A program made the position numbers and the translations under genes. This document shows positions 57,459 to 64,000 of a DNA stretch of 64,000 nucleotides, piece by piece (position 1 is the first letter of the stretch; the number at the start of each line of letters is the position of its first letter). The notes under the pieces are model-generated. The model had not been told where the DNA came from and did not search any database. It saw only the letters and a list, made by a program, of their open reading frames with translations. The DNA lies in the NCBI GenBank assembly GCA_030266015.1, contig JAJDHD010000005.1, positions 1 to 64,000 on the forward strand, given 5' to 3'. Source of the DNA: Christensenellaceae bacterium OttesenSCG-928-K19 (lineage in GTDB: Bacteria > Bacillota > Clostridia > Christensenellales > Christensenellaceae).

Positions 57459-59114
57459 CTATTCGGCATCCTGCTGCCTTATTTCCATTCTTTTGATCTT
57501 GCCGCTTGTTGTCTTGGGCAGCTCTGTCACAAACTCGACAACGCGCGGGTATTTATATGGCGCGGTCACATTTTTTACATGATCCTGCAATTCTTTTTTT
57601 AGTTCGTCCGAGGGACTGTATCCCTTGGTGAGCACCACAGTGGCCTTTACCACCTGCCCACGCACCGCGTCTGGCACGGCGGTAATGGCGCATTCCAGCA
57701 CCGCGTCGTGTGTCAGCAGCGCACTCTCCACCTCAAACGGCCCAATGCGGTATCCCGAGCATTTGATTACGTCGTCGTTCCTGCCCACAAACCAGTAATA
57801 ACCGTCTGCGTCTCGCCATGCGGTGTCCCCTGTGGAATAGGTACCCGCAGGCCAACTTTTTGCCATGGCATCCGGGTCGCGGTAATACTCGCGGAACAGC
57901 CCGGTGGGGTGCTGCTTGTCTGTGTTCTTTACTACAATTGTGCCCACAACGCCATCCTCACACGAGTTACCTTCTTCGTCCACAATATCGAGGTCATACA
58001 GCGGGGAGGGCTTGCCTGTGGAGCCGGGCTTTACGGGGAACCATTCAAAGTTTGCGATAAACACGCTGGACTCCGATTGCCCAAACCCTTCGCAGATAGG
58101 CACGCCGGTAAGCTCCATAAAACGGTTATACACCTCTGGATTCAGAGGTTCACCAGCCGTGCCCGCGTGCTGTAATGTAGAGAAATCATATTTGGAGAAA
58201 TCCTCCTGGATTAAAAAGCGGTACACAGTGGGCGGTGCGCAAAATGTCGTCAAACGCAGGCGCGCCATGGTCTCCAGCATTTTTACCGGGTCAAATTTCT
58301 CCTGGTCATAGGCCACGATGACCGCCCCGCAAATCCATTGTCCATAGATCTTGCCCCAACCGAACTTTGCCCAGCCGGAATCTGCCGCAACAAGGTGCAG
58401 GCCGCCTTCCTCCACGCGCTGCCAATACTTTGCCGTCACAATGTGTCCCAGCGGGTAGGTGAAGTCGTGTAATATCATCTTGGGCATTCCCGTGGTGCCG
58501 GATGAAAAATAAATCAGCATGGGGTCTGTCGCTTTATTTGCTTCACTGCCCGTGGGCCGTTGCCAGTCCGGGGCGGTGTCCAGGTCTGTTCGCAGCGAGC
58601 ACCACCCATCCGGCGCTTCGCCGAGTATGCTGGTATACTTCAATGTTTTGCACTCCGGACGTGCCGCGTCCACATGCTTTACAACCTCCGGGTCGTCTGC
58701 CGCACAGATCATTTTGACGCTGGCGGCATTGCAACGATACACAATGTCCTTGGGTGTGAGCTGGTAGGTTGCGGGAATGACCACGCCTCCCATTTTGTGC
58801 AGCCCCACCATGAGAAACCATACCTCTGGGCGTTGCTTTAGCATCAGCATTACAGCGTCGCCTTTTTGAATGCCTTTGGCGCGAAGCATACTGGCTGCCT
58901 TGTCGCTCCAATATTTCACCTCGCCAAAGGTAAAGCGCTTCTCCTGTCCTTCGTCGTTGCACCATACAAGCGCGGGCTTGTCCGCGTCCTGCTTTGCCCA
59001 TTCGTCTATCACGTCGTAGCCAAAATTAAATCCTTCTGGGATATTTAGCTTATAGTTCTGTTTAAAATCCTCATAGCTTTCAAACTCTGTCCTGTCTAAA
59101 AATCTTTCTACCAT
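57459..59114 (-). CDS. AMP-forming acyl-CoA synthetase (ACS/MACS-like)
   Basis: 551 residues of the acetyl/medium-chain acyl-CoA synthetase group. Motifs: IYFSSGTTGMPKMILHDFTY, CEGFGQSESSVFIANFEW, YSTGDTAWRDADGYYWFVGR and NDDVIKCSGYRIGPFEVE, with the catalytic lysine in LPKTTSGKIKRMEIR. ATG 59114 follows AGAGGG by 5 bases. It is flanked by a Sir2 deacylase and an XRE-cupin regulator, both on the same strand. The set suggests control both by transcription and by acetylation of the C-terminal lysine. The acid substrate (acetate, propionate or medium chain) is open. Confidence 0.89.
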   Translation of the reverse strand: MVERFLDRTEFESYEDFKQNYKLNIPEGFNFGYDVIDEWAKQDADKPALVWCNDEGQEKRFTFGEVKYWSDKAASMLRAKGIQKGDAVMLMLKQRPEVWFLMVGLHKMGGVVIPATYQLTPKDIVYRCNAASVKMICAADDPEVVKHVDAARPECKTLKYTSILGEAPDGWCSLRTDLDTAPDWQRPTGSEANKATDPMLIYFSSGTTGMPKMILHDFTYPLGHIVTAKYWQRVEEGGLHLVAADSGWAKFGWGKIYGQWICGAVIVAYDQEKFDPVKMLETMARLRLTTFCAPPTVYRFLIQEDFSKYDFSTLQHAGTAGEPLNPEVYNRFMELTGVPICEGFGQSESSVFIANFEWFPVKPGSTGKPSPLYDLDIVDEEGNSCEDGVVGTIVVKNTDKQHPTGLFREYYRDPDAMAKSWPAGTYSTGDTAWRDADGYYWFVGRNDDVIKCSGYRIGPFEVESALLTHDAVLECAITAVPDAVRGQVVKATVVLTKGYSPSDELKKELQDHVKNVTAPYKYPRVVEFVTELPKTTSGKIKRMEIRQQDAE

Positions 59115-59217
59115 AATTCCCTCTGCCAATCCTTTTGTTTTCCCTTATTAAGCCAGCCGCAAAACTCGTCGACAGCAAGCAGTGCACTGCCATCGTCTTT
59201 TTCATGCGCCTATCCTG

Positions 59218-59784
59218 CTATCGTTTACCCGCACAAGCATTTTCATTAATAACGGTTAAGAATTTTGCCTTATTCGTCACTGCGCGCTGCCCGTGTGGCA
59301 CAGCAGGGTTAAAGTAAATGCTGTCGCCTGTCTCCAGCGTAAATTCCCGCTTGCCAATGGCAATGGTAATGGTGCCTTCCAGCACATAATTGAACTCTTG
59401 CCCGGCGTGTGACACAAGCTCGGCTTGCTCTGCTTTTGTGAGCGTAACGATCATGGGGTCCATGTCCCTGTTTTTATAGTTTGCCGCAAGCGCGGAAAAA
59501 GAATAGCCCGCGTATCGGTCTACCTTAACGCCATTGCCCCCGCGCACAATCGTGTATTCGTCCATACGTGGCCCTTCGCCCGTCATCAACACTGTGGTGT
59601 CCACGCCAAACTCGCCAGCGACAGCATACAGCACGCCAATCGGGATATCGTCCGTCGCGTTCTCATAGCTTTGGTATTCGGCAAGCGGTATGCCGACCTT
59701 GTCCGCAACCTCCTGCTGCGAGATCTCCAAAATTTCCCTTAACTCGCGTATACGCGCGGCAATTTGCTCAATCTGCTCGTTCAT
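59218..59784 (-). CDS. XRE-family regulator with cupin domain
   Basis: 188 residues. Residues 1-65 form an XRE helix-turn-helix (RELREILEISQQEVADKVGIPLAEYQ). A linker follows, then a cupin at about 110-180 with HAGQEFNYVLEGTITIAIGK and LETGDSIYFNPAVPHGQRA. The cupin probably binds a small effector. It lies just upstream of the acyl-CoA synthetase on the same strand and is likely its local regulator. The ATG follows AGGAAAGG. Confidence 0.9.
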   Translation of the reverse strand: MNEQIEQIAARIRELREILEISQQEVADKVGIPLAEYQSYENATDDIPIGVLYAVAGEFGVDTTVLMTGEGPRMDEYTIVRGGNGVKVDRYAGYSFSALAANYKNRDMDPMIVTLTKAEQAELVSHAGQEFNYVLEGTITIAIGKREFTLETGDSIYFNPAVPHGQRAVTNKAKFLTVINENACAGKR

Positions 59785-60013
59785 TCTTTTTTCCTTTCCT
59801 GCTAAGTGGTGCTCTGATATGTATTTTTTTATTTTACCATATTATTTTTTGTTTGGCACCATAAACCCTCATTTCTTTTAACAGAAAACCGTGCTTTTTG
59901 CCAATTTTTTTGGAGATTGCCCTGCTTGCGCTTGTAAATTTGAGTTGTTTGTGGGAAAATCTAAGAAAGAATTTTTTGCTTTTGTACTTGAAAGAATCAG
60001 GGAGGTGACCTCC

Positions 60014-60814
60014 ATGCCTTTGCAAGCCGCATTTGCGCTTCCACACCCGCCCATCATCCTGCCCGAGGTTGGCAGGGGGGAGGAGAAGGCCATCCACAAA
60101 ACAACAGATGGATTCCGTGCGGCGTCCCGCATGATTGCGAACCTGCAACCGGAAACAATTGTCATTTGTTCCCCGCATTCTGTTTTATACGCCGATTATT
60201 TCCATATTTCGGAGGGCAAAAAATACAGGGACAGTATGCGCCGCTTTGGCGTGCCCGGGCTAACGCTGGAGGCGGAGTATGACGAAGAGTTTGTGGGTGC
60301 GTTGTGTGGCATCGCGGCAAAAGAGGTTTTCCCGGCGGGGACGCTGGGCACAAAGGAAGACGTGCCCGACCATGCCACATTCATCCCGCTTTATTTTTTA
60401 AACCAACAATATACAAACTATAAATTGGTGCGGGTGGGACTTTCCGGCCTTTCGCTACACGATCATTTTCGTTTTGGAAAAATGATTGCACAAGCGGCAG
60501 CCGACCTTGACCGAAAAACAGTGCTGGTTGCAAGCGGCGACCTGAGCCATAAGCTGAAGGAGGACGGGCCATATGGTTATGACCCCATGGGGCCGGTGTT
60601 CGACGGGGAGATTGCGGATATTTTCTCCTCCGGCAGGCTGGAGGAGCTGGAGAAAATGGATCCTTCCGTATATGAGCCTGCCGCCGAATGCGGGCTGCGG
60701 TCGTTTGTGATCATGGCAGGCGCGCTTTACGGCACCCGCATAAAGCCCGAGATGTTTTCGTGCGAGGGTCCGTTTGGCGTTGGATATGCCACTGCCGCGT
60801 TTTTAACAGAATAA
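60014..60814 (+). CDS. amrB: AmmeMemoRadiSam system LigB/Memo-like protein
   Basis: 266 residues of the class III extradiol dioxygenase (LigB)/MEMO1 family. Histidines placed for metal binding are in FALPHPPIILPEV, VICSPHSVLYADYF, VPDHATFIPLYFL and VASGDLSHKLKEDGPYG. Human MEMO1 binds iron or copper, and catalytic dioxygenase activity has not been shown for this group. ATG 60014 follows GGGAGGTGA by 6 bases. It is 23 bases before the AMMECR1 gene. In many Firmicutes these two domains are fused; here they are separate genes. Confidence 0.86.
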   Translation: MPLQAAFALPHPPIILPEVGRGEEKAIHKTTDGFRAASRMIANLQPETIVICSPHSVLYADYFHISEGKKYRDSMRRFGVPGLTLEAEYDEEFVGALCGIAAKEVFPAGTLGTKEDVPDHATFIPLYFLNQQYTNYKLVRVGLSGLSLHDHFRFGKMIAQAAADLDRKTVLVASGDLSHKLKEDGPYGYDPMGPVFDGEIADIFSSGRLEELEKMDPSVYEPAAECGLRSFVIMAGALYGTRIKPEMFSCEGPFGVGYATAAFLTE

Positions 60815-60837
60815 AATAATACAGAAGGAGCAGTATC

Positions 60838-61350
60838 ATGGATGTGTATGTCGAATTGGCAAAAAACTCTCTGGAAGAGTTTATAAAACATGGGAAGAGA
60901 TATGAACCGCCCTATGACCCGCCCCTGCCGGGCGAGCTGACCTCGCAGCGGGCGGCTGTTTTTGTGTCGTTGAAAAAAGACGGCGCGTTGCGGGGATGCA
61001 TTGGCTCCTTGCAACCGACAATGGAAAATATTGTGCAGGAAATTGTGGAATATGCCATACTGGCAGGGTCAAAAGACCCGCGCTTCCCCCCTGTTGATGT
61101 GGCTGAGCTTGATAGCATTGAGTATAGTGTGGATGTATTAAGCACGCCCGAGCCCACTACGTTTGACGAGCTGGACGCAAAGGAATACGGCGTCATTGTG
61201 ACAAACGGCTGGCGGCGCGGTGTGCTGCTGCCCAACCTGGAGGATGTGGACACGCCCGAAGAGCAGATTAGTATTGCTATGCAAAAAGCGCATATCCGCG
61301 CGGACGAGCCTTATGAACTGGAGCGTTTTCGCGTGGTTCGCCACAAATGA
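60838..61350 (+). CDS. amrA: AmmeMemoRadiSam system AMMECR1 protein
   Basis: 170 residues, a single AMMECR1 domain. The conserved glycine block LRGCIGSLQPT is near residue 55, with AVFVSLKKDG before it and LPNLEDVDTPEEQISIAMQKAHI at the end. The function is unknown; the human homolog is linked to a developmental disorder. AGAAGGAG precedes the ATG. Its stop overlaps the start of the radical SAM gene by 4 bases. Confidence 0.92.
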   Translation: MDVYVELAKNSLEEFIKHGKRYEPPYDPPLPGELTSQRAAVFVSLKKDGALRGCIGSLQPTMENIVQEIVEYAILAGSKDPRFPPVDVAELDSIEYSVDVLSTPEPTTFDELDAKEYGVIVTNGWRRGVLLPNLEDVDTPEEQISIAMQKAHIRADEPYELERFRVVRHK

Positions 61351-62171
61351 AAACGGTTTGCGCTATCTGCCTGCACACCTGCGCGCTATCTCCCGGGCAA
61401 GCCGGCCTGTGCGGTGCGCGGGTTAACGAGAACGGGAAGATCGTTGCGCAAAACTATGGTATGCTTACCGCGCTGGTGTTAGACCCCATCGAAAAAAAGC
61501 CGCTCGCCCGCTTTCATCCGGGCAGCTATATCTTGTCGGCAGGCAGCTATGGCTGCAACCTCAAATGCCCCTTTTGCCAAAACAGCGACATCTCCATGCC
61601 CGAGGGTGCAATCCCCGCCACCTATACGCCGCCCGAAGCGCTGGTGGAAAAAGCGCTTTCCCTACAAAGTAACGGAAATATTGGTATTGCCTACACCTAT
61701 AACGAGCCGCTGGTCGGCTATGAATACGTGCTGGATTGTGCTACGCTGGCGCACAAAAACGGCCTTTTCAATGTCGCCGTTACCAACGGCATGGTGTGCC
61801 CTGCTCCGCTGGAAGCCCTGCTGCCTCACCTGGATGCAATGAATATTGATTTAAAAGCATTTACGCAAGCTTTTTATGACAAAGTCGGCGGGGATCTTGA
61901 TGCGGTCAAAAACAGCATAGCGCTTGCGGCAAAGCATTGCCATGTGGAGGTGACGACGCTTATTATCCCGGGCGAAAACGATTCGCAACAGGAAATTGAA
62001 GCGCTTGCGGCATGGCTGGCCTCCGTCAACCCAAAAATCCCATTGCATGTCAGCCGTTTTTTTCCGCGGTTCCACATGACGGAAAAACCGCCTACGCCCG
62101 TGCAAACAATTTACGCGCTGGCAAGCACGGCGCGCAAGCATTTAAAATATGTATATGAGGGAAATTGTTAA
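61347..62171 (+). CDS. amrS: AmmeMemoRadiSam system radical SAM enzyme
   Basis: 274 residues. The radical SAM cluster motif is CNLKCPFC (C70, C74, C77; C-x3-C-x2-C) in GSYGCNLKCPFCQNSDISM. Before it an N-terminal cysteine group (CAICLHTCALSPGQAGLCGAR) may bind a second metal or zinc. It resembles pyruvate-formate-lyase-activating-enzyme-like AmrS proteins. The substrate is unknown, but strict linkage to AMMECR1 and Memo proteins suggests they act in one reaction. A terminator follows. Confidence 0.93.
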   Translation: MKTVCAICLHTCALSPGQAGLCGARVNENGKIVAQNYGMLTALVLDPIEKKPLARFHPGSYILSAGSYGCNLKCPFCQNSDISMPEGAIPATYTPPEALVEKALSLQSNGNIGIAYTYNEPLVGYEYVLDCATLAHKNGLFNVAVTNGMVCPAPLEALLPHLDAMNIDLKAFTQAFYDKVGGDLDAVKNSIALAAKHCHVEVTTLIIPGENDSQQEIEALAAWLASVNPKIPLHVSRFFPRFHMTEKPPTPVQTIYALASTARKHLKYVYEGNC

Positions 62172-62249: not shown

Positions 62250-62885
62250 TTATGCTTTCAGGATAGAAAGTGCCACATCGCTGGCAGAAGCAGCATCAGA
62301 AGCATAATAGTCAGCACCGATTGTCTCGCAGAAGTTCTGCGTAACAGGCGCGCCGCCCACCATCACTTTGATCTTGCCTTTCATGCCTTTTGCGTCCACA
62401 GCGTCCACAACGTCCTTCATCACGCTCATGGTTGTTGTGAGCAGTGCCGAGCAAGCGATTACTTTTGCGTCATGCTCAATTGCTGCATCCACAAATTTCT
62501 CCGGCGGAACGTCTACGCCAAGGTCAATAACCTCAATGCCTTTGCCTTCCAGCATGATTTTAACAAGGTTTTTGCCGATGTCATGCAGGTCGCCCTTTAC
62601 CGTTCCCAAAATTACTTTGCCCACGTTGTCCGCGTCGCCTTCTTCCATGGCCGGCTTCAACACTTCAATACCCGCGTTCATTGCACGCGCAGCAATCAGC
62701 ACTTCCGGTACATACACTTCATTGTTCTTGAATTTTTCGCCAATGATGGACATTCCCGCCAAAAGACCGTCGCTCAGGATCTCTTTAGCCGGCTTGCCTT
62801 CTTCCAGGGCGGTAGCCACCAGTTCTTTTACATTCTTCGCTCTTCCCTGTTGCACAAAGGTACTTAGTTCGTCATACACGCTCAT
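62250..62885 (-). CDS. corrinoid (B12-binding) methyltransferase protein
   Basis: 211 residues, a cognate corrinoid protein of the MtaC/MtbC/MtmC type. An N-terminal helical cap (residues 1-85) is followed by a B12 domain with KGDLHDIGKNLV, where His101 is the lower cobalt ligand, then GVDVPPEKF and VMVGGAPVTQNF. It carries a methyl group between a substrate methyltransferase and a second acceptor. The ATG 62885 follows GGAGGG. No methyltransferase is in the window; it may lie beyond the right edge. A PocR-AraC regulator is directly upstream. Confidence 0.93.
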   Translation of the reverse strand: MSVYDELSTFVQQGRAKNVKELVATALEEGKPAKEILSDGLLAGMSIIGEKFKNNEVYVPEVLIAARAMNAGIEVLKPAMEEGDADNVGKVILGTVKGDLHDIGKNLVKIMLEGKGIEVIDLGVDVPPEKFVDAAIEHDAKVIACSALLTTTMSVMKDVVDAVDAKGMKGKIKVMVGGAPVTQNFCETIGADYYASDAASASDVALSILKA

Positions 62886-62945
62886 TTGTTTACCCTCCAT
62901 AATAGCGCTATTTTTCATTCGGCTTTCACCAAAACTGTCTTACGG

Positions 62946-64000
62946 TTATATGTTGCCGCGCTTATCGCGGTATTTGCCGGGCGAGGTGCCCGTCTGTTTT
63001 TTAAATACTTTGTTGAAATACGTTTGATCCTCGAACCCGCACAGGTAGGCGACCTCTACAAGCGGGATATCCTTGTCCAAAAGCAGCATTTTTGCGTTGT
63101 CCACCCGCACTTTGTTGATAAACCCTGTGATAGAGATTCCCATTTCGTCCTTGAATACCCTGCTGATATACGACACCGAAAAATTGACATTGGACGAAAT
63201 ATCATTCAGCGTAATCTTCTGCATATAGTTCTGCCGGATATAGGTGATAATATCCAGTATAATGTCCGAATGTTTCACAGCGCCAAGGTCAAACACGCTG
63301 TTGGTAAAACGGATGAGCACATTTGCCAGCCAGGTGTTGAGCTCGTCCAGCGTTTTAAAGCTGTCGATATCCCGCAGGTAATCATAGTTGAGGCCAAATA
63401 CCTGCACCACATCCGCGCCACCTTCAATCGCCGCCCGGGAGAGAAGCACGATAAGCTCGGTTGTTCGCGCTTTGATGACATTGAAGTCGCCCCCGGAGCA
63501 GAAAAACACGTTGCCCAGTATTTCATTCAATACCTTTTGGGCGGCGGGTCTGTTGCCCTGCGCAATATAGTTCTGGAGTGACTTTTCTGCTTCTATGGGA
63601 TACCTGTAGCTGTTCGATGCCTCGTTCTTCATGTCGGTGATGTAGGTAAACTGCTCGCTATCGCTCGTTGCAAGCTGCTCCATAATACGAAGCTCTATGC
63701 TGTCCCGCTCCATTGCGTAGGAGGTAAGCATATATAACACATCCGCAAAAGAGGATACCCTGCCGCATTCCACATACGGTATGGTATCGGCCAGCTTTTT
63801 TAGCCCGGCCACCGCTTTCCCGTCAAAAAAACCGGGTAGCTCCTCCGACAAAAATTCCTCACGGTCGGTCATCAAAAACGGGCCAACTACGATGCCCATC
63901 TTTTCACGGCCTTTTGATAACATTGTATTGATAAACGTCAGCCCCAGCGGACAAAGCCATTCATACTTGCCGCCCCAGCGCTCAGACTGGTAGCACGCAT
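62946..64000 (-). CDS. PocR-domain AraC-family regulator, 5' end outside the window
   Basis: At least 351 residues; the frame stays open to the window end. The upstream part CYQSERWGGKYEWLCPLGLT followed by IVVGPFLM is a PocR sensory domain. The C-terminal part is an AraC DNA-binding domain: DIISYIRQNYMQKITLND-like ITLNDISSNVNFSVSYISRVFK and VAYLCGFEDQTYFNKVFKK. PocR domains are thought to sense hydrocarbon-type compounds such as propanediol, and such regulators often sit by corrinoid methyltransferase genes. It lies 60 bases upstream of the corrinoid protein gene, which it probably controls. Confidence 0.9.
   Translation of the reverse strand, partial: ACYQSERWGGKYEWLCPLGLTFINTMLSKGREKMGIVVGPFLMTDREEFLSEELPGFFDGKAVAGLKKLADTIPYVECGRVSSFADVLYMLTSYAMERDSIELRIMEQLATSDSEQFTYITDMKNEASNSYRYPIEAEKSLQNYIAQGNRPAAQKVLNEILGNVFFCSGGDFNVIKARTTELIVLLSRAAIEGGADVVQVFGLNYDYLRDIDSFKTLDELNTWLANVLIRFTNSVFDLGAVKHSDIILDIITYIRQNYMQKITLNDISSNVNFSVSYISRVFKDEMGISITGFINKVRVDNAKMLLLDKDIPLVEVAYLCGFEDQTYFNKVFKKQTGTSPGKYRDKRGNI

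Follow-up and report, generated by a model that had tools for sequence, protein, structure and literature searches.

Does the cluster of three genes at positions 60014-62171 constitute a complete AmmeMemoRadiSam operon, and is the separation of its parts a native design? The window (the whole stretch of 64,000 nucleotides that was analysed) encodes here a LigB-type protein, an AMMECR1 protein and a radical SAM (rSAM) protein, which an earlier note, made from the letters of the DNA, had taken for such an operon with split domains. Judged by curated profiles and gene adjacency, the trio is the AmmeMemoRadiSam set already described, in the form found in Bacillota. Its main unusual point, as read from the genes, is that LigB and AMMECR1, normally fused, are encoded separately in this genus. 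The finding is real, and adds an ordinary and useful member to a system that is already known and widespread and whose function is unsolved. Our literature search returned no paper giving a function for the bacterial AmmeMemoRadiSam system, in agreement with the earlier remark that its reaction is unknown. A 2019 paper by Burroughs and colleagues (J Biol Chem), mentioned in PMC7159879, reportedly dealt with the dioxygenase-Memo superfamily and with its links to AMMECR1 and rSAM; for the contexts in which Memo occurs it is said to have suggested modification of nucleotide bases or of isoprenoids. Diseases have been linked to the human homologues MEMO1 and AMMECR1; we know of no agreed biochemical function for either, and bacteria that carry the system are an obvious place to seek one.

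The three genes and their families

The locus is laid out as follows, in window coordinates.

59785-60013, no strand assigned: intergenic region 5' of the trio, between a divergent XRE-cupin regulator gene (minus strand) and the LigB gene
60014-60814, plus strand: LigB-type gene, 266 aa, ATG after GGGAGGTGA
60815-60837, plus strand: LigB/AMMECR1 junction of 23 bases, including its own ribosome-binding site; in fused homologues a linker of about 29 residues, mostly helical, occupies this place
60838-61350, plus strand: AMMECR1 gene, 170 aa, ATG after AGAAGGAG
61347-62171, plus strand: rSAM gene, 274 aa
62185-62235, no strand assigned: hairpin AGCCCTGCC..GGCAAGGCT and then a T-rich stretch, found by eye between the convergent rSAM and corrinoid-protein genes

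The ORF positions reproduce the three sets of coordinates, the 23-base gap and the ATGA overlap of AMMECR1 and rSAM (61347-61350) reported in the earlier note, and they place the LigB, AMMECR1 and rSAM parts in three separate genes; the LigB and AMMECR1 genes have a separate ribosome-binding site each. Upstream, the minus-strand XRE-cupin regulator gene begins at 59784 and diverges from the trio, an arrangement also present in a second genome of the genus. Downstream, the corrinoid-protein gene converges with the rSAM gene and ends at 62250; the hairpin between them is probably the operon terminator, and it is absent from the list produced by the terminator scan. An Rfam search of the 64-kb window gave zero matches.

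Several flanking genes were recorded in passing. An acyl-CoA synthetase (MbcS-like) gene and the XRE-cupin regulator gene (57459-59784) adjoin the trio in the second genome of the genus too. On the other side, 62250-63923 holds genes for a methyltransferase-type corrinoid protein (MtgC/MtbC-like) and an AraC-type regulator, with no methyltransferase among the annotated ORFs near the corrinoid-protein gene. Just past the window (L031:283-1089, contig about 64283-65089) lies a distant relative of lincosamide nucleotidyltransferases, whose protein falls far below every curated cut-off (211 bits versus 525).

The AMMECR1 protein matches PF01871 (146.7 bits) and TIGR04335 (120.6 bits, cut-off 99), and the rSAM protein matches TIGR04337 (258.4 bits, cut-off 220) over profile positions 12-285 of 349. 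With both proteins above their curated cut-offs and the components encoded together in adjacent genes, the earlier identification of the trio as an AmmeMemoRadiSam set stands. The first protein matches PF02900 (LigB) at 150.9 bits over residues 6-259 (gathering score 26.3) and has zero matches to PF01875 (Memo; gathering score 27 bits) at E 0.001, so that of its former label, 'LigB/Memo-like', the LigB half is kept and the Memo half is dropped. Against TIGR04336 ('protein B') it scores 24.1 bits, slightly below the 26-bit cut-off that seven of eight sibling LigB proteins from other operons pass weakly (28-46 bits). NCBI naming would consequently make several of the siblings 'protein B', and the third slot is assigned to the window protein by gene position and by its siblings. 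Compared by hhalign with PF01875 Memo proteins from the phylum, the LigB protein aligned only in part (97% probability). On the profile scores we call the locus the LigB form of the AmmeMemoRadiSam system and not the canonical Memo form. It resembles the system defined by TIGR04335, TIGR04336 and TIGR04337 in having AMMECR1 and rSAM proteins over the cut-offs and a third part from the LigB/Memo superfamily, but differs in that this part is a PF02900 protein under the protein B cut-off and that its rSAM protein is without the C-terminal two-CxxC domain.

Separation of LigB and AMMECR1

Of the 91 rSAM loci compared, 80 come from named genomes and 10 from relatives, and one is the window's; LigB and AMMECR1 form a single ORF in 80 of the 91 and are unfused in 7, including the window and a locus cut by a contig end (L093). 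AMMECR1 is near rSAM in 87 of the 91 and distant in 4; all four of those genomes carry AMMECR1 elsewhere (in three of them in frames of 465-468 aa), which indicates that the pairing is not chance. The linker of the fused proteins has a median length of 29 residues (mostly 27-31); a helix is predicted at 274-291, residues G267, R272 and F274 are fairly conserved, and the whole linker is missing at the window's junction. G001, the one same-genus genome sampled, is also split, at a junction that differs from that of the window.

In a 68-row tree of the three proteins the window and G001 cluster (SH-aLRT 93) beside three fused sequences of the same family, and the split label needs 5 changes, at least 4 of them forced by starred branches; the tree is unrooted and comes from a quick search, and we infer the direction of change. 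Because the window and G001 are nested among fused sequences, derived fission is the simplest reading, and the split in this genus looks like such an event. Splitting is uncommon but recurrent as far as the sampled sequences reveal, and standalone short AMMECR1 frames number 7 of about 158 among the phylum matches listed (hand count). A special native design does not fit these comparisons, in which the two domains of relatives usually form one chain and the split appears to be derived and recurs elsewhere. Nor does the split make each part newly testable, as had been proposed: the PDB has contained AMMECR1 structures since 2005 (1VAJ, 1ZQ7, 1WSC).

Set against the operons of Bacillota that combine a LigB-AMMECR1 fusion with rSAM (L034, L036), the window has the same domains, order and invariant residues, with 61% identity to L034 across the three aligned proteins, but uses two genes for LigB and AMMECR1 and is without the linker of about 29 residues. 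An AlphaFold2 (AF2) model of the natural fusion L034 (461 residues) has a pLDDT of 94.7 and a pTM of 0.86, which suggests that the fusion has a defined domain arrangement; on assembly of the separate proteins this pTM bears indirectly. The operon described here offers a naturally split version together with a compact 274-residue rSAM protein, and may be handier than fused or long forms; it is a reasonable but not unique start for biochemistry, the same system being present in many cultured Bacillota.

At two other loci, L087 (6531-7982) and L107 (554-2077), LigB and AMMECR1 share a reading frame with one in-frame stop between them, a state that is possibly a fission intermediate or a sequencing error. 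Two genomes, L120 (6985-7890) and L076 (9331-10299), have an additional LigB-type gene that stands alone close to the gene for the LigB-AMMECR1 fusion; the L076 copy is apparently broken by a stop.

Predicted iron site and the radical SAM protein

The residues on which the following comparisons turn are these.

LigB protein, by alignment: predicted iron ligands H11, H55 and E225; active-site H120 and H179; invariant C226, which adjoins E225
AMMECR1 protein: invariant LRGCIG (51-56), E68, D80, R82-F83, E90, D99, Q143, K150 and R168
rSAM protein, 274-aa short form, by sequence: cluster motif C70-x3-C74-x2-C77

Residues H11, H55, H179 and C226 are invariant in the aligned homologous LigB domains (107/107), and H120 and E225 are each kept in 105 of the 107. 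A HMMER alignment equates E225 and H179 with E251 and H195 of aminophenol 1,6-dioxygenase, the iron ligands of which are H13, H62 and E251; those of MEMO1 are H49, H81 and C244 (PMC11081632). C226 pairs with D222 of TK2203 in the alignment and falls near the position of MEMO1 C244, and either E225 or C226 is a candidate for the residue that faces the metal. By alignment the LigB protein retains the full 2-His-1-Glu residue set of a type II extradiol iron site (H11, H55 and E225) as well as the catalytic His (H179), the metal itself being predicted.

Among fold matches of the LigB protein, TK2203 (TMt 0.85) comes ahead of dihydroxyphenylacetate and aminophenol dioxygenases (0.70-0.80) and these ahead of MEMO1 (0.54-0.57). 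With LigB (1BOU), aminophenol 1,6-dioxygenase (3VSH), DHPAO (8IQ8) and TK2203 (5HEE) the window protein shares the fold and H11/H55/E225/H179, while it differs from type II extradiol dioxygenases and TK2203 by C226, by its AMMECR1 and rSAM partners and by a host lineage without terminal oxidases. With human MEMO1 (3BCZ, 7KQ8, 7L5C) it has in common the superfamily fold, two metal-binding His and a Cys that occupies or adjoins the position of the third ligand, whereas the H49, H81 and C244 ligand set and the low TMt of that match separate the two. Neither heme-copper oxidase nor cytochrome bd was found in the window genome (72% complete) or in 20 relatives, and given this absence an O2-dependent role for the LigB-AMMECR1 unit in the host is judged unlikely; some O2 use would be compatible with the missing terminal oxidases. 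The puzzle is that a lineage showing no sign of respiring oxygen has a full residue set for a dioxygenase iron site.

The AMMECR1 protein combines its PF01871 match with the LRGCIG motif, which is invariant in 87/87 AMMECR1 sequences, is identical in the three rSAM-less genomes read (L161, L168, L169) and occurs in archaeal AMMECR1 homologues of solved structure. In the rSAM protein an N-terminal C5-x2-C8-x3-C12-x9-C22 site is invariant in 74/74 aligned rows, long and short. Long relatives extend into a domain with two CxxC knuckles (NTYCPxCG … GKCxxCG), and the window protein terminates at YVYEGNC. In the window's order the 11 matches over the cut-off, one of them the window's, all end at TIGR04337 position 282-296 of 349, while the majority in the wider phylum extend to about position 330, which argues for the short form as a trait of the clade and against a local truncation. 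The AF2 model of the window rSAM protein (pLDDT 97.2) is closest in fold to pyruvate formate-lyase (PFL) activating enzyme (3C8F; TMq 0.72, TMt 0.80). The two are alike in the rSAM core fold and the Cx3Cx2C cluster, but differ in sequence (16% identity), in the extra invariant four-Cys N-terminal site and in an operon without a glycyl radical enzyme; the cognate enzyme by which an activase would be recognized is missing among the annotated flanking ORFs.

Co-occurrence, gene order and competing readings

Among 249 genomes sampled from the phylum, AMMECR1 and rSAM are both present in 186, AMMECR1 only in 4, a weaker rSAM only in 4 and neither in 55. The two thus occur jointly in 186 of the 194 genomes with either (Fisher p 2e-45, with genomes counted regardless of relatedness), and by these counts of sequence matches their co-occurrence is near-obligate. 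The four sampled genomes with AMMECR1 but no rSAM indicate that rSAM is not strictly required, and the control Haloferax likewise has AMMECR1 and no rSAM match. In three AMMECR1-only genomes that were read, the LigB-AMMECR1 fusion keeps its PHPP, ECG and LRGCIG motifs, which implies that the LigB-AMMECR1 unit can persist alone. In humans, Memo and AMMECR1 are conserved and no rSAM counterpart is known. The earlier description of the trio as conserved from bacteria to humans therefore applies to Memo and AMMECR1 but does not extend to rSAM, given the four genomes and Haloferax.

Neighbours were surveyed at 74 phylum loci with a usable anchor. An Amidase_3 protein, which we take to be CwlD, recurs at 42 loci; the other recurrent neighbours are ribosomal proteins S9 and L13, a protein taken as TruA, ArgC-ArgJ-ArgB, CdaA-CdaR-GlmM and arginase. 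In many genomes of the wider phylum the trio lies between truA-rplM-rpsI-cwlD and either cdaA-cdaR-glmM or argC-argJ-argB (for example L143, L144, L156, L227, L228 and L229). The two-sided pattern points to an ancestral chromosomal order, which we take to reflect ancient vertical descent rather than a pathway, and the AmmeMemoRadiSam set in this phylum looks ancient and vertically inherited. The window copy and those of close relatives no longer lie in the truA…cdaA/arg interval, and no consistent neighbour that might serve as a pathway clue was found among these relatives. We also considered the adjacency of cdaA as such a clue, since in at least 14 genomes (0.15 expected) this gene is found downstream, on the same strand and no more than 2.5 kb away; ancestral gene order explains the adjacency better, as truA-rplM-rpsI-cwlD flank the opposite side.

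The reading that we favour, with confidence a little better than even, is a Bacillota-form system in which a LigB-clade protein fills the Memo slot, LigB and AMMECR1 make up a metalloenzyme, rSAM is auxiliary and O2 does not cleave a ring. The separate LigB and AMMECR1 proteins would assemble like the fused domains of the L034 model into one metalloenzyme with iron held in LigB, and the RGCIG/D-x-RF surface of AMMECR1 may shape or close the active site. The rSAM protein would be an anaerobic auxiliary partner whose SAM cleavage feeds or matures the LigB-AMMECR1 unit, through a maturase-like step or an earlier radical step on the same substrate, and in this host the unit would not act as an O2-using ring-cleavage enzyme. 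It is unlikely, though conceivable, that the extradiol-type iron site and the invariant Cys work without O2, with rSAM giving an oxidising or radical step and LigB-AMMECR1 completing the reaction; if true, the system would be an anaerobic form of a reaction that eukaryotic Memo and AMMECR1 run without rSAM.

Several other explanations compete with the Bacillota-form metalloenzyme. A canonical three-gene operon with a true Memo protein and natively separate parts would agree with the AMMECR1 and rSAM scores and with the siblings weakly over TIGR04336, but we regard it as quite unlikely in view of the unmatched PF01875, the sub-threshold TIGR04336 score, a fold closer to type II dioxygenases than to MEMO1 and the mostly fused relatives. 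The rSAM protein might instead be a glycyl-radical-type activase that modifies AMMECR1 or gives it a radical, perhaps on the LRGCIG glycines, and PFL-type activating enzymes are indeed its nearest families and fold, the motif is invariant and the co-occurrence is near one-to-one; a glycyl radical on LRGCIG is nevertheless downgraded because the motif is unaltered in the three rSAM-less genomes read and in the archaeal homologues, and this explanation is very unlikely. A shade less credible again is the idea of three independent housekeeping genes held together solely by ancestral gene order: the conserved phylum interval is what it predicts, but presence or absence of AMMECR1 and rSAM agrees in 241 of 249 genomes, unlinked cases included, and LigB is usually fused to AMMECR1.

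For an ordinary O2-dependent extradiol dioxygenase that serves aromatic breakdown beside unrelated neighbours speak the PF02900 score and the complete 2-His-1-Glu residues of the first ORF; with dioxygenase equivalogs far under cut-off (HpaD 47 versus 316), LigB fused to AMMECR1 in most relatives, no terminal oxidases in 20 relatives and no aromatic-degradation genes among the recurrent neighbours, it is highly improbable. Hardest of all to credit is an assembly or frameshift artefact as the source of the split: the genome is incomplete (127 contigs, 72% complete), but a stop, a good ribosome-binding site and a start all stand at the junction, where the linker is absent and not frame-shifted, and G001, from the same genus, is split at a different junction.

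No PF01875 Memo protein was found in the window's genome, where at 127 contigs and 72% completeness absence is not proof. In three genomes compared by hand (G176, G241, G261) the Memo genes lie away from the trio. Many PF01875 Memo proteins of the phylum sample (L122-L136) have signal-peptide or lipobox-like N-termini (for example L130 and L133) and carry LDSP at the position of the ECG motif. By their N-termini these proteins look exported, and they may represent an extracytoplasmic Memo branch.
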